A DNA stretch of 32,482 bases from Syntrophobacterales bacterium (GTDB lineage Bacteria; Desulfobacterota; Syntrophorhabdia; Syntrophorhabdales; Syntrophorhabdaceae), in NCBI GenBank assembly GCA_031274925.1, contig JAISPL010000018.1, forward strand, positions 1 to 32,482, read 5' to 3'. Made by a program: the position numbers and the translations under genes. Of the stretch, positions 1,873 through 7,898 are shown in pieces (within the stretch, counting starts at the first letter, position 1; the number at the start of each line of letters is the position of its first letter). The notes beneath the pieces were generated by a model, which worked only from the letters and a program-made list of their open reading frames with translations, did no database searches and was not told the DNA's origin.

Positions 1873-3210
1873 TCAATTCCTCTTGTCTGTCGGTCTTCCT
1901 ATACATTCATAATAAAAACCCATCTCTGCCATTATTGCAGGGTTATACTGGTTTCTTCCGTCAAAAATTACGGGCTTCTTCATGAGTCCTTTCATCCTGT
2001 CAAAATCAGGTTCCCTGAATGAGAGCCATTCCGTAATAAGGATCAGGGCATCCACATCCTTAAGAGCATCATACTGGTTATTTTCGAATTTGATATTTTT
2101 ATTGCTTTCAAATACTTTCTCGGCTACTTCCATCGCCTTGGGATCGTGCAAATGGCAAAATGCGCCTCTCATTGTGAGCTCGTTGACGATATATGTCGCG
2201 GGAGCCTCCCTCATATCATCCGTATTCGGCTTAAAGGCAAGCCCCCATATGCCAAACTTCTTCCCCTTTATATCCCCTCCGAAGTACGACAGCACCTTCT
2301 CGGCAAACGCAACCCGCTGAGAAGCGTTCACCTTCATTACTCGGTCCAGTATGGAAGCATCACACCCATATTCCTGACTGGTCCGTATCAATGCCCTTAC
2401 ATCCTTCGGGAAGCAGGAGCCGCCAAATCCAACGCCAGGGAAAAGGAACTTGGGTCCTATTCTCGAATCGCTTCCCATCCCTCTCATCACCATCATCACG
2501 TCAGCCCCTACTTTCTCACACAAATTTGCAATCTCGTTCATGAAAGAGATCCTGGTGGCAAGCATGGAATTGGCCGCATACTTCGTCATCTCGCTTGATC
2601 TTATATCCATGGCAAGAAAGGGCGCACCCGTGCGGGTAAAGGGCGAATAAAGTTCCTTCAATGTCTCCCCTACCCTGCCATGCTCCACTCCCACAACGAC
2701 CCTTTCCGGCTTCATACAATCATCTACCGCCACGCCTTCTTTCAAAAACTCGGGGTTTGATGCCACGTCGAACGAGACATCGGCCCCTCTCTTTTCCAAC
2801 TCTTTCTTGATCGCTCCTTTGACCTTTTCACAGGTTCCAACAGGTACCGTAGATTTGACAACAACAATTCTATATTTATCGATTACTCTGCCCACATCCT
2901 CGGCCACGCTCATCACATACTGGAGGTCCGCAGACCCATCTTCGTCCTGAGGCGTGTTGACGCTGATAAAAATAACGAGCCCGTGATCAACCGTCTCTTT
3001 GATATCTGTCGTAAACCGGAGTCTTCCCTGCTCCATATTGTTTTTTACCAATTCCTCCAAGTGAGGCTCGTAGATAGGTATAATCCCTTTCTTCAGGTTT
3101 TCTATCTTTGCCTGATCAATGTCCATGCAGATCACGTCATTACCTGTCTCCGCAAAGCATGTCCCGGTTACGAGACCGACGTAACCAACGCCAACAACTG
3201 ATATACGCAT
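1873..3210 (-). CDS. ugd: UDP-glucose 6-dehydrogenase
   Basis: Oxidises UDP-glucose to UDP-glucuronate with two NAD+. The 445-residue length is normal. The N-terminal NAD-binding domain begins VVGVGYVGLVTG (5-16), the second strand ends with the NAD-binding acid in DIDQAKI, and the KSTVPVGT motif sits at 119-126. The catalytic loop GFGGSCFPKD (261-270) holds nucleophile Cys266. The C-terminal UDP-binding domain includes GLAFKPNTDDMREAP. The ATG at 3210 has a GGAGG box just upstream on the minus strand. It is the first gene of a three-gene minus-strand unit with the decarboxylase and the small cysteine protein. The order substrate producer then consumer supports a UDP-xylose branch. Confidence 0.96.
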   Translation of the reverse strand: MRISVVGVGYVGLVTGTCFAETGNDVICMDIDQAKIENLKKGIIPIYEPHLEELVKNNMEQGRLRFTTDIKETVDHGLVIFISVNTPQDEDGSADLQYVMSVAEDVGRVIDKYRIVVVKSTVPVGTCEKVKGAIKKELEKRGADVSFDVASNPEFLKEGVAVDDCMKPERVVVGVEHGRVGETLKELYSPFTRTGAPFLAMDIRSSEMTKYAANSMLATRISFMNEIANLCEKVGADVMMVMRGMGSDSRIGPKFLFPGVGFGGSCFPKDVRALIRTSQEYGCDASILDRVMKVNASQRVAFAEKVLSYFGGDIKGKKFGIWGLAFKPNTDDMREAPATYIVNELTMRGAFCHLHDPKAMEVAEKVFESNKNIKFENNQYDALKDVDALILITEWLSFREPDFDRMKGLMKKPVIFDGRNQYNPAIMAEMGFYYECIGRPTDKRN

Positions 3211-3364
3211 AAAGCCTCCGTATTTTTTATTTCATTTTTACCTTCAAAATAGTAGGAAAGTCAATTAAAGATTATATGTGAAACAGCATCATGACTCGCC
3301 CCCCCCCAAAAAAGCCAGTTCAAACCTGAAAACCGCAAAAAAACCAACGTTCTCTGTTAATGAA

Positions 3365-3453
3365 CCTCCCCGTCGCAAGCGACGAGGTGTCCCGGGGTTT
3401 ACGACTGACTATTAGACAAGTGCCTCAAGGGACGGGGAATTCGACCCGTAGAG
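3365..3453. repeat. REP-like composite hairpin element
   Basis: Two stems are visible. The first pairs CGTCGC (3371-3376) with GCGACG (3379-3384), backed by CCT (3365-3367) with AGG (3385-3387). The second pairs ACGGG (3432-3436) with CCCGT (3445-3449) around the 8-nt loop GAATTCGA. A GTCCC (3389-3393)/GGGAC (3429-3433) pairing could bridge the two, though it competes for two bases of the second stem. The G+C-rich, structured composition differs from the A+T-rich flanks. Such paired hairpins resemble REP/BIME elements mobilised by IS200-like TnpA(REP) transposases. That identity is inference; no transposase is in the window. Confidence 0.45.
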
Positions 3454-3454
3454 A

Positions 3455-3483
3455 TTAACATATTGAAAAAAAGTCCATATTAT
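3455..3483 (+). promoter_or_regulatory. Sigma-70-type promoter for the rimP-nusA-infB operon
   Basis: The -35 box TTAACA (3455-3460) and -10 box TATTAT (3478-3483) each match the consensus at 5 of 6 positions and are separated by exactly 17 nt. Transcription would start near 3490, giving a leader of about 48 nt that contains the hairpin at 3501-3519 before the rimP start at 3538. The -35 box directly abuts the end of the REP-like element, so that element may have shaped the promoter. Confidence 0.55.
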
Positions 3484-3500
3484 GTTAAAAATACAAATGT

Positions 3501-3528
3501 TAGTGGGCTCGACCCGCTATTTTAGTTT
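3501..3528 (+). terminator. Terminator-like hairpin in the rimP leader (possible attenuator)
   Basis: Seven base pairs (3501-3507 with 3513-3519, including one G-U) close a 5-nt loop CTCGA. The stem is followed by the T-rich run ATTTTAGTTTAG. The stem lies between the predicted promoter and the rimP ribosome-binding site (AGAGG, 3529-3533). Leader hairpins with a T-rich tail are known upstream of several rimP-nusA operons and fit feedback by NusA on its own operon. Here the T-tract is broken, so partial rather than complete termination is more likely. Confidence 0.45.
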
Positions 3529-3537
3529 AGAGGCTAA

Positions 3538-4002
3538 ATGATATCCGAGAATGAGATCGTAAAAAAAATTGAGAGCGTACTTAATCCCATCCTTGGCGAG
3601 GAGTCGATTGAGCTGGTGGATCTTGAGTTCATGCCTTTCGGGAAGAGATGGATGCTTCGCATATTCATTGATAAAGAAGGAGGCGTTACAATAGCGGATT
3701 GTGAAACGGTGAACCGTGAACTGGGCAGAATTCTGGATGTGGAGGATTTCATTGACCACCCGTATACATTGGAAGTCTCCTCCCCTGGTCTCACCCGGTC
3801 GTTGAAGAAACGTACGGACTTTTTGAGATATAGAGGTAAGCTCTGCAAAATAACAACAAAAGAGCGCATTGACAACAAAACCGAGTTCAGGGGAAAGATT
3901 GTCGATATTACAGACGATAAAGTTGAGATTAAAGGAAAAATAGATGTATTTACAATCCCGATATGTGCTATAAAAAAGGCAAACTTAGAATTTGAATTAT
4001 AA
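3538..4002 (+). CDS. rimP: Ribosome maturation factor RimP
   Basis: Needed for maturation of the 30S subunit. At 154 residues it has the family's usual length. The N-terminal alpha/beta domain shows IELVDLEF, WMLRIFIDKEGGVTIADCE and the hallmark LEVSSPGLTRSLKK (about 78-91). The C-terminal SH3-like domain follows (KITTKE, FRGKIVDI, KGKIDVFTIP). The ATG at 3538 follows an AGAGG box at 4 nt spacing. It is the first gene of the operon and is 9 nt ahead of nusA, the standard arrangement. Expression is probably set by the promoter and hairpin just upstream. Confidence 0.96.
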   Translation: MISENEIVKKIESVLNPILGEESIELVDLEFMPFGKRWMLRIFIDKEGGVTIADCETVNRELGRILDVEDFIDHPYTLEVSSPGLTRSLKKRTDFLRYRGKLCKITTKERIDNKTEFRGKIVDITDDKVEIKGKIDVFTIPICAIKKANLEFEL

Positions 4003-4011
4003 GAGGTATTC

Positions 4012-5307
4012 ATGTATTTTGATTTGAATTACGTTATTGAACAGGTAGGCAAGGAAAAAGGCATACCAAAGGAAACGTTGATTGCTGCCCTAGAAGAGGC
4101 GATACTCTCCGCATCCAAGAAAAAATATGGCAGCCATCTCGACTTAGAGGCAAAATACAACGAAGAACTGGGCGAGATAGAGGTGTTCCAGTTTAAAAAA
4201 GTGGTGGAAGAAGTAAATGAACCAGATGTGGAGGTTTCCATTGAGGAGGCAAGAACGCACGACCCTGAATGCGAGATCGACGACAGCATAGGCGTTAAGA
4301 TGGATACTTCGTCTCTGGGGAGAATTGCAGCCCAGACAGCAAAGCAGGTAATTGTCCAAAAGGTGAGAAACGCGGAAAGCGATGTTATATATAATGAATA
4401 CAAAGGTAAGAAAGGTGAGATAGCAGCAGGCGTCATTCAGCGGGCAGAAAAGAACCACTACGTGGTTAACCTCGGGAAGACCGAAGCGATCCTTCTCGCA
4501 AAGGAAGTGATACCAGGCGAAGGTTTCCGTCAAAGAGACCGGATCAAGGCGGTTATCCTAGACGTCGAAAAAACCCCTAAGGGCTGTACAATACTTCTGT
4601 CACGGACTCATCCAGGCTTTCTCATCAAACTCTTTGAACTGGAAGTTCCCGAGATTCAGGAAGGTATAATAAAAATCATCGGGGCTGCACGGGAACCGGG
4701 AGAACGGGCAAAAATATCAGTCTACAGCGAGGATCCAGACATAGATCCCATTGGCGCCTGCGTGGGTGTGAAGGGGTCAAGGGTCCAAGCAGTTGTCCAG
4801 GAACTGAGAGGAGAGAAAATTGATATCATACCCTGGAGTAAAGATCCAGCCAAATTCGTCTGCAATACCCTGGCGCCGGCTAGAGTTTCCAAGGTCTATA
4901 TCAACGAAGAGGAACATTCTATGGAAATCATAGTGAATGATGACCAGCTTTCTCTTGCCATAGGCAAGAAAGGTCAAAATGTACGACTTGCGTCGAGACT
5001 GACCGGCTGGAAGATAGACATAAACAGTGAGTCTGAAGTAGAGATTACGTCGCGGAAAGTAATCGACGACCTCATGGATAAGCTCAAGATTAGTGAAATC
5101 CTCGCCAGGATCCTCCATGATGAATATCTGAGAGACGCCCAGGACCTTGCAAAACTTACATCTGAAGAATTGAACAAGATCACCAGCATTTCCATAGAAG
5201 ATTGCAGAAGAATCATCGAACAAGCCAAACAGATCAAGGAAAAAGAAACATCGGAAAAAACAGAGGAACGACAGGAAGAGGCTGCGGCCGGGAATCTGCA
5301 ATCGTAA
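4012..5307 (+). CDS. nusA: Transcription termination/antitermination factor NusA
   Basis: Binds RNA polymerase and nascent RNA, modulating pausing, termination and antitermination. The 431-residue protein has the N-terminal polymerase-binding domain (about 1-125), an S1 domain (HYVVNLGKTEAIL), and two KH domains with IGACVGVKGSRVQ and LAIGKKGQNVRLASRLTGW. A single helix-hairpin-helix-like region follows (SEILARILHDEYL ... LTSEELNKITSIS), ending in a charged tail. It lacks the second acidic repeat of the E. coli protein, as in most non-gamma bacteria. The ATG at 4012 has an AGAGG box. No ylxR gene lies between nusA and infB, where many bacteria keep one. Confidence 0.97.
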   Translation: MYFDLNYVIEQVGKEKGIPKETLIAALEEAILSASKKKYGSHLDLEAKYNEELGEIEVFQFKKVVEEVNEPDVEVSIEEARTHDPECEIDDSIGVKMDTSSLGRIAAQTAKQVIVQKVRNAESDVIYNEYKGKKGEIAAGVIQRAEKNHYVVNLGKTEAILLAKEVIPGEGFRQRDRIKAVILDVEKTPKGCTILLSRTHPGFLIKLFELEVPEIQEGIIKIIGAAREPGERAKISVYSEDPDIDPIGACVGVKGSRVQAVVQELRGEKIDIIPWSKDPAKFVCNTLAPARVSKVYINEEEHSMEIIVNDDQLSLAIGKKGQNVRLASRLTGWKIDINSESEVEITSRKVIDDLMDKLKISEILARILHDEYLRDAQDLAKLTSEELNKITSISIEDCRRIIEQAKQIKEKETSEKTEERQEEAAAGNLQS

Positions 5308-5348: not shown

Positions 5349-7898
5349 ATGACAAAAATAAAAATCACCACCTTCACCGATAAGATAAGCGACGATGAAA
5401 TTCTGTCGAAATTGAAGGGTATCGGTGTAAAGATAAAGGATAAGTCAAGGGAGGAAACGCCTCACGAAGAAGAAAAAGAAAGGATAGCGCCCGCAGGAGA
5501 AACCCTCGTAGAGAAACGCGTGGCTTCCACGATTATACGCAGAAGGGTTCAACCTCCTCCTGAAAAAGAGAAAACAGAGACCATTAGACAACAGACGGTC
5601 CCCGAAGAACCTCCAAAAGCCCCGCGTCCAGAAAAAATTGCTATAAAGTATAAAGAACCAACACCAACAGAACCAGTGGTGGCGGAAGCTCCGGTTCCAC
5701 GGGAAGCCAAAGCGGAGGTCCCGGAAACTGTCGAAAAATCATTGGAGATGGAGCCTCCCGAAAATAAAGAGCCGCCAGTAGAAGAACTGTCCAAGGGGGA
5801 AGTAGAGCGGATCGGACAAGAAAAGGAAAAAGAGATTACCAAGGTACTTGAAGAGGCTTACAAACAGGATCTTGAGAAAGAAGTCACTCTTACCGATGAA
5901 ACAGAAGAAGAACGGAAGAAGAAAAAGACTGAAAAGCTTCTGAAAAAGATAGAAGAACAGGAATTTGAGGAGACCAAGGTAAAGAAAAAAGGCCTTCTCA
6001 AAAGAAAGGTCGTCATAAAAGAAGAAGATCTCTATACATTCAAGAGAGGGAAAGGAAGGTCCACTCCCAACCGAAAAGGACGAACACTGGATGAGAGGAG
6101 GGAAGAAGACCGAAGAGAGGCGAGACCTGCCAAAAAATCGATCAAGGTAGGCGACGAGATACAGGTAAGCGAGCTTGCAAAAAGGATGGGCATCAAGGCG
6201 CAGGATATCGTTACAAAACTTCTGCCTCTCGGAATAATTGTTCCTATAAATCAGAGCATAGATTATGATACGGCATACTTAGTAGCGAGTGAATTGGGCT
6301 TCGACGTGGAAAAGATAGTTTCAATTGAAGAAGAATTTCTTGCTCTTGAGGAAGAGCAAAAAGAAAGTAGCAGCCGGAATCTGAAGCCAAGGTCGCCCGT
6401 AGTGACGATTATGGGCCATGTCGACCACGGCAAGACACTTCTCCTCGACACAATCCGCCATTCAAATGTTGCGGAGAAGGAGGCGGGAGGGATCACCCAA
6501 CATATCGGAGCATATGTGGTGAATGTGGACGGAAAGGAGATTGTTTTTGTAGATACGCCAGGCCACGAGGCGTTTACCGCGATGCGGGCGAGAGGGGCGA
6601 AAGTCACCGACATCGTCGTTCTTGTTGTTGCATCTGACGATGGCGTAATGCCTCAAACGGTAGAAGCCATAAACCATGCCAAAGCCGCTAATGTACCTAT
6701 TATTGTGGCCATCAATAAGATAGACAAGCAAAACGCAAACCCTGACAAAGTCTTGACGGAACTGAGCGAGTACGGATTGGTTCCCGAGGAATGGGGCGGA
6801 ACAACTCTGTTCGCGAAGATTTCCGCCAAAAAAAATATGGGTATAAAAGAGCTTCTCGAATTGATTACTCTCCAAGCTGAAATGCTTGAGCTGAAAGCGG
6901 ACCCAGATCAGTTGGCCAAGGCCATTATCGTAGAATCGGAACTTGACAAAGGACAGGGTCCTGTGGGCACCGTCATCATTCAGGAAGGAACCCTGAAAAT
7001 AGGAGATCCCTTCATAGCTGGGAGCATGTTCGGAAGAGTTCGGGCTATGATAGATGATAAAGGGAAAAGGATCCAGAAGGCGCCGCCGTCCACGCCGGTG
7101 CTTGTAGTAGGATTTCAGGATGTCCCTCACGGGGGAGACCGGTTCATCGTTACCACAGAAGAAAGGTATGCAAGGGAGCTATCAAAGTATCGCCAGGAGA
7201 AACTTAGGGAAAAAGAGATAATGAAGAGTTCCCGAACCACCCTTGAGGATCTTTATTCGAAGATGCATGAAACAGGGAGAGTCACTCTCAATGTAATTGT
7301 AAAAGGCGATGTGAGAGGGACTATCGACGCCATAATTGAAGCCCTGAAAAAACTTTCCAACGAACAGGTAGAAATTCAGATAATTCACAGCGGTGTCGGC
7401 GCCATCACGGAAACGGATGTGAACCTGGCTATGGCGTCAGGTGCCATTATAATCGGCTTCAATACAAAGCCGATCGGCAAGGCACAGGCGCTCGCGGAAC
7501 ATGAAAAAATAGATATCAGAACATATTCCATCATATATGAACTGATTGACGAGATCAAAAAAGCCATGGAAGGAATGCTTGCCCCGAAGATCGTCGAGAC
7601 CGAGATCGGAAAGGCCGAAGTACGGAAAGTGTTCTCCGTATCTAAGATAGGCACGATCGCCGGATGTTACATGACCGAAGGGAAAGCGACCAGAAATGCT
7701 GTGGTAAAGGTAATGAGAACCAGCAATGAGGTATTCTCCGGTAAACTTGCCTCTCTGAAACGATTCAAAGATGATGTGAAAGAGGTTCAGACAGGATACG
7801 AGTGTGGAGTATCAATAGAAAGCTTCAACGATATCAAAGAAGGGGACATCTTGGTCTTCTCCATACAAGAAAAAGAGAAGCAGACCCTCGACGGTTAA
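5349..7898 (+). CDS. infB: Translation initiation factor IF-2
   Basis: GTPase that places fMet-tRNA on the 30S subunit and promotes subunit joining. The 849-residue protein has an IF2_N-like module at about 1-30, a long low-complexity Lys/Glu/Pro linker (about 35-260) and a second IF2_N module ([21 protein letters not shown] region, from 271). The GTPase domain has G1 GHVDHGKT (356-363), G2 [10 protein letters not shown] (379-388), G3 DTPGH (402-406), G4 NKID (456-459) and G5 SAK (492-494). Beta-barrel and C-terminal fMet-tRNA-binding domains complete it. The ATG at 5349 is 41 nt after nusA. All G motifs are intact, so it should be active. Confidence 0.98.

Follow-up and report, generated by a model that had tools for sequence, protein, structure and literature searches.

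A PATE-type repeat element beside the promoter and leader hairpin of the rimP-nusA-infB operon in a Syntrophorhabdaceae bacterium

The rimP upstream region and its repeat element

The window, by which we mean the whole 32,482-nt stretch of DNA that was analysed, is contig 18 of the 2.06-Mb assembly of a Syntrophorhabdaceae bacterium (G000). This assembly consists of 57 contigs and has a completeness of 97.36%, so that the absence of a gene from it is no proof. The window carries rimP (3538-4002), nusA (4012-5307) and infB (5349-7898) on the plus strand, as an earlier reading made from the sequence alone had recognized. The nusA and infB genes score above the cut-offs of TIGR01953 and TIGR00487, respectively; rimP was called from the NCBIfam RimP models (best E 1.7e-42, all 25 RimP models shown scoring below their curated cut-offs) together with gene order. 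On its other side the intergenic region is bounded by a divergent nucleotide sugar dehydrogenase gene on the minus strand (1873-3210; above the cut-off of TIGR03026), which also adjoins rimP in the genus-mate G002. The two genes are 327 nt apart in the window versus 232 nt in G002, a difference of exactly 95 nt. Within the window's intergenic region, a run of nine C followed by a run of A (3299-3307) lies between the divergent gene and the repeat element described below. In another genus-mate, G001, rimP was matched at positions 166-627 of contig 28 with 73% identity. The G001 assembly breaks in the same intergenic region, at the starts of contigs C28 and C162 (loci L050 and L180), where the presence of the element cannot be judged.

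Scanning of positions 3150-3700 returned two promoter-like sites (shuffle mean 1.1) and one terminator-like site (shuffle mean 0.7); lying near the shuffle means, such matches mean little alone. Single-sequence DNA folding of the repeat element was not better than that of its shuffles (z 0.51; 141 of 200 folded at least as well), and folding of the leader was weakly special (z -1.63; 17 of 200 shuffles at least as good). The case for the element and for the leader hairpin rests on repetition and comparison.

The element, which we class below as a palindrome-associated transposable element (PATE), occupies positions 3359-3453. The sequence-only reading had described a repeated, mobile-type, G+C-rich element with two hairpins that ends at about 3453, and the comparison bears it out: far from being single-copy and unconserved, the element has 32 matches in G000 at E≤0.001, itself included (query 3330-3560). 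The aligned copies have in common AATGAACCTCCCCGCCGCAAGCGGCGGGGTATCC and GGGGCGGGGAATTAGACCCGTAGAGATTAA, separated by a middle that varies in length, and in the aligned part they are 77-97% identical to their consensus. A fixed score allowed both ends to be located in 25 of the 32 copies; the seven below this score were dropped. In the 25 copies the conserved part ends sharply, at AATGAAC in one direction and at ATTAA(A) in the other. None of them has the same 5-mer next to its two ends, i.e. there is no target duplication. Each is a single two-ended unit of 96-116 nt including the target ATTAA, too short for a transposase. As judged by eye, neither of the ends AATGAAC... and ...GATTAA(A) is the other in inverted form, so that terminal inverted repeats are absent; palindromes lie near both ends. 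In the window, the right-end palindrome is CCCCGTCG-CAAG-CGACGAGG (3368-3387), as seen from the sequence and from pair counts over the 25 copies. Counted by eye, seven of its eight pairs form, and one inner pair departs from the consensus on both sides. The left-end palindrome (3420-3433), placed by sequence and alignment with the other copies, appears by eye to be imperfect in the window copy. By a crude count, five of the 32 copies lie inside an open frame of at least 90 aa, and the other 27 do not.

With the window copy as query no match was obtained in G001, and with the consensus of the copies 11 matches were obtained there. G001 has a 100-bp PATE subfamily of its own with similar ends and a different middle (L133, L182): a search with one G001 copy gave six matches in G001, counting the query, and another in G042, all covering 96-100 of 100 nt at 94-100% identity. 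Neither the window copy nor the consensus detected a copy in G002. Within the family, the consensus matched in 15 of 39 genomes at E≤0.01, often with just its first 33 nt. Many matches to just these first 33 nt, i.e. the right end, occur in G005, G044, G042 and G039, which perhaps carry other PATE families with different left ends. Some matches have identical contig coordinates in two assemblies of different genera (G001:C106/G042:C80 and G001:C66/G042:C48), which suggests a shared or mis-binned contig. The consensus had no match in E. coli genomes (E≤0.01) or in phages (E≤0.1). It matched 18 plasmid records of distant bacteria, two of which cover at least 80% of the consensus and the others one end.

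The conserved promoter and the leader hairpin

To characterize the region between the element and rimP, we compared the rimP upstream regions of relatives. This set comprised 23 order-level loci, of which 22 have a hairpin by our scoring rule (L055 being the one without). Together with a shuffle control, the comparison revealed a conserved promoter on the plus strand of the window, composed of a -35 box TTGAAA (3463-3468), a 17-nt spacer and an extended -10 region (3483-3491), in which TG (3483-3484) and a single T precede TAAAAA (3486-3491). The conserved promoter is also present in G002, which is free of the element. In 21 of the 22 loci the -10 box of the best-scoring promoter ends 9-15 nt before the GTGGG of the hairpin; the TG extension likewise occurs in 21 of 22, and exact TTGAAA in 14. 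When the upstream DNA was shuffled, 317 of 4400 best promoters fell into the 9-15 nt range, 67 of them with TG and six with both TG and a score at least as high as that observed. Transcription generally starts about 7 nt after a -10 box, and the predicted start in the window is at about 3498-3499.

The leader hairpin TAGTGGG-CTCGA-CCCGCTA (3501-3519, plus strand) has a stem of 7 bp and is followed by a short T tract, TTTT (3520-3523). The terminator-like hairpin noticed from the sequence alone is confirmed, and it is kept in relatives. A fixed rule, which includes a T tract of at least five T in seven positions, detected it in 22 of 24 close-relative regions, versus 112 of 2400 shuffles, and in 25 of 28 loci from the phylum, versus 242 of 2800 shuffles. 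The close set consists of the 23 order-level loci and G023; L047 (a duplicate record), L048 (the named outgroup) and L073 (a second gene fragment) were left out. The phylum set consists of the new loci among 30 returned for the 52 matching of 59 genomes searched, and two of them, L158 and L160, are near-identical in the leader region. One of the two misses in the close set, L070, does have the hairpin, further upstream than the range of the rule. The second stem pair may be T-G, T-A or C-G. The T tract is interrupted in three genomes of the genus (TATTTTAG, TGTTTTAG and TATTTTAC), and most relatives have six T.

In Naville and Gautheret's ranking the rimP-leader is the most ubiquitous predicted attenuator, with the motif GGGc(...)gCCC, in which lower-case c and g are marked as less conserved (PMC2965389). 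Repression of the rimP-nusA-infB operon by NusA is published, and the same account proposed NusA as the rimP-leader factor, a role given there as proposed and not demonstrated (PMC2965389). Like the rimP-leader as presented in that account, the sequence in the window is a short hairpin that has GGG in the 5' arm, CCC in the 3' arm and a T stretch behind it, and is located before rimP-nusA-infB. Unlike the leader presented there, the hairpin of the window's order nearly starts the predicted transcript, GTGGG/CCCGC, which includes a G-U pair, occurs in 18 of the 22 hairpins, and the inner c...g is found in none of the 22 order-level loops (c...a in the window; many loci of the phylum keep c...g). 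This absence slightly lowers our confidence in the overall explanation given below. The Rfam family RF01770 (rimP; gathering 47 bits) had no match in G000, and of 14 control genomes just Escherichia coli matched; filing the leader under RF01770 was rejected, the score being below gathering. Rfam searches of the window gave no match at gathering and one sub-threshold snoRNA match (E 0.79) over 3340-3560, and searches in ten sources gave none up to E 0.5. Judged by its arms, T stretch and position, the hairpin is a form of the published rimP-leader.

In the window's order no more than about 10 nt separate the predicted start from the beginning of the hairpin, GTGGG lying at about +3 to +10 if transcription begins about 7 nt after the -10 box, and by this comparison the compact arrangement is typical of the order. 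Outside the order, the distance from the best-scoring promoter to the hairpin is 20-35 nt in 14 of 26 loci; over all of them it ranges from 9 to 101, and some of the scores are low. Because the hairpin starts at about +3 to +10 of the predicted transcript, there would be no room upstream for an antiterminator. The arrangement would fit control through a factor that binds RNA polymerase, for example NusA. A fit to autoregulation by NusA had been suggested in the sequence-only reading and may stand, the same having been proposed in PMC2965389.

Alternatively, the hairpin might be mainly a 5'-terminal stem that shields the mRNA from decay, and no terminator. Its start at about 10 nt or less from the predicted start throughout the order and the interrupted T tract in the three genomes of the genus would suit such a role. 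However, the T tract, which is part of the rule, is retained in all the loci that conform to it (22 of 24 and 25 of 28), also where the hairpin is further from the promoter. We consider protection of the mRNA rather unlikely to be the main role, and favour an attenuator.

The insertion point and a second promoter-like sequence

For a relative of the element a natural empty site was found. A megaplasmid of Xenorhabdus bovienii (L078:339-865 and 1201-1900) carries tandem paralogues, one with a 100-bp PATE and the other empty, which are identical at 279 of 301 positions in the left part and 167 of 229 in the right part. The empty sequence is AATTTTGGATTTAATACG; the occupied one consists of TTTTGG, the element and ATTTAATACG, and one G or A at the joint is assignable to either side. 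Comparison of empty and occupied sequences shows that ATTTAAT at the edge of the element was pre-existing and that nothing was duplicated. A 99%-alike copy is located at a different site in Xenorhabdus sp. TH1 (L144), also beside ATTTAAT, and the presence of such similar copies at two sites suggests past movement of this plasmid relative. A plasmid search for further empty sites in the case of Legionella matched just the record itself.

Applied to the window, the rule taken from the Xenorhabdus empty site gives 3359-3453 as the inserted DNA and ATTAA (3454-3458) as the target. The copy edges and the comparison with G002 likewise point to ATTAA as target, which would be older than the insertion. 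At the aligned place G002 has AATAA, and it has GAATAACCTATTGAAA where the window has GATTAACATATTGAAA. We infer the exact insertion point from the Xenorhabdus case and not from G002, the alignment with which does not place the insertion at 3359-3453, as the upstream DNA has diverged: allowed a single free gap, it prefers one from 3345-3350 to 3437-3444 (score 201) to 3359-3453 (score 187.5).

The sequence-only reading had placed a promoter with a 17-nt spacer at 3455, immediately behind the element, and had suggested that the element may have supplied or altered its -35 region. A match of this kind, TTAACA-17-TATTAT (3455-3483), does exist and agrees at 10 of 12 hexamer positions; on bare hexamers it even exceeds TTGAAA/TAAAAA, for which nine of 12 were counted by eye. 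However, it is not the promoter conserved in relatives. The transcription start is likely to lie elsewhere than this match implies, by about 8 nt according to the comparison. The element as source of the conserved -35 box could be ruled out: TTGAAA starts 9 nt past the insertion, and G002 has the same promoter without the element. Nor is the suggestion upheld for TTAACA, the TTAA of which would be pre-existing target, going by the Xenorhabdus empty site.

The operon might nevertheless also use TTAACA-17-TATTAT, as a second start without counterpart in relatives. Besides the match at 10 of 12 positions, inspection by eye showed TATTATG in the -10 region of 11 of 16 f1 loci and two of three f3 loci; a text search counts 12 of 16 in f1, L062 having one elsewhere upstream. 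TTAACA itself is not conserved in relatives, the aligned hexamer in G002 being ATAACC, and thus looks particular to the window's genome. Against a second start, its TTAA is target and not element by the Xenorhabdus case, and TATTATG is found in none of the four f2 loci. Moreover, L056, L059, L060, L062, L063 and L068 are without TATTATG at the -10 region, and in each of them the compact promoter is best-scoring. A second start is unlikely in our view, and the conserved promoter remains the preferred one. Of note, many f1 and f3 relatives share TATTATGTTAAAA (window 3478-3490) to a greater extent than a -10 box requires; it perhaps contains an overlapping second -10 box or a regulator site.

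IS200-type ends and the history of the locus

IS200 tnpA genes lie between ends of the same kind in Kovacikia, Chroococcidiopsis, Pseudanabaena, Megaera and Piscirickettsia. In Kovacikia minuta the gene between them is an open frame of 147 aa on the opposite strand (Pfam Y1_Tnp, E 1.1e-38), and this TnpA scores 134.8 on the NCBIfam IS200 transposase model (cut-off 55) versus 34.8 on the REP transposase model (cut-off 80). With two further proteins that behave alike, the three related transposases score 130.7-137.4 and 27.8-34.8 on these models. Among 12 loci chosen from earlier matches, the right end agreed at 26 or more of 34 positions in 10, the left end at 25 or more of 37 in six, and both in six, the shuffle maxima being 20 (right) and 22 (left). 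At one of the six loci with both ends, L098, the tblastn match covers just 23 aa of TnpA. In a wider set (24 loci submitted, 22 scored) the right end reached at least 26 of 34 in just four, and most Y1 genes of the family therefore belong to other elements.

In the tnpA sense the element is on the minus strand of the window, with its left end at 3453 and its right end at 3359. Y1 sequences in G000 were fragments only, unclassified, and no intact related tnpA was found there (completeness 97.36%). Two candidate parents were rejected: the Y1 fragment at C51:675-776 has ends matching at 16 of 37 and 18 of 34 positions, which is background level, and the decayed Y1 gene at C53:19346-19680 has flanks unlike PATE ends as judged by eye. 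The latter gene, in region L042 (C53:18500-21000), apparently belonged to another IS200-like element.

PATEs have been described in the archaeon Haloquadratum walsbyi (PMC3119063), and one PATE-like sequence in the bacterium Halanaerobium (PMC7290912). Like the PATEs presented in PMC3119063, our element is without a transposase gene, has near-terminal palindromes, no target duplication and IS200/IS605-like ends. Unlike the homogeneous PATEs of the archaeon, which are said to exceed 90%, the 32 copies have diverged, and unlike the case of Haloquadratum no intact partner transposase was found in G000. Judged from its genomic matches, the sharp alignment edges, the ends common to tnpA-bearing elements and the empty site of its Xenorhabdus relative, the element is a PATE, i.e. 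a transposase-free remnant of an IS200-type insertion sequence. It is probably inactive, and we infer that it is immobile at present. In the literature on IS200, miniature and non-autonomous elements, Syntrophus and Syntrophales were absent among the matches listed; earlier publication is still possible. A REP/REPIN origin of the element, with spread through a REP-associated transposase, as its description as REP-like had implied, is hardly credible and was rejected on transposase class and end structure: being short, palindromic, repeated, mostly outside open frames and related to Y1 transposases it resembles REPs, but the three related transposases pass the IS200/IS605 cut-off and fall far below the REP-transposase cut-off, the 25 well-bounded copies are single two-ended units, and the hairpins, inspected by eye in sequence and consensus, are without GT[AG]G at the 5' foot, the mark of REPs according to PMC6006769.

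Taken together, we think it likely that a PATE inserted beside an old, intact rimP promoter, the leader of which is a compact form of the known rimP-leader attenuator. In the past, an IS200-type TnpA would have mobilized a PATE of about 95 nt in trans, and this PATE would have inserted beside the pre-existing ATTAA, 9 nt upstream of the old promoter. The insertion would have spared the promoter (TTGAAA-17-TAAAAA with TG) and the leader, and displaced DNA further upstream. The hairpin and its T tract would constitute the attenuator, nearly the first RNA that the polymerase makes, and NusA, which the operon itself encodes, most likely determines the frequency with which transcription stops there. 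Several of the above results weigh against this explanation: TTAACA/TATTAT scores higher on bare hexamers and may also be used; the G002 alignment prefers another gap; G000 yielded no intact related tnpA; the right end was seen in just four of the 22 scored loci of the wider set; and the T tract is just TTTT, in a hairpin of an order whose loops do not keep c...g and in a genome not matched by RF01770.

The view that a mobile element rewired a core operon is thereby corrected: the element is most likely an old bystander by a conserved promoter, and the arrangement of the three elements is largely ordinary. The analysis adds IS200-type ends common to several phyla, the PATEs that belong to them, and a clean natural empty site. 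More tentatively, it is possible that the rimP attenuator of this order is pressed against its promoter such that the terminator hairpin, as the first RNA made and with no space ahead of it for a sensor or an antiterminator, forms a gate at promoter escape that reads only polymerase-bound factors; NusA, which replaces sigma, would be the natural candidate. The compact form of the rimP attenuator would make control by NusA testable without an upstream antiterminator.
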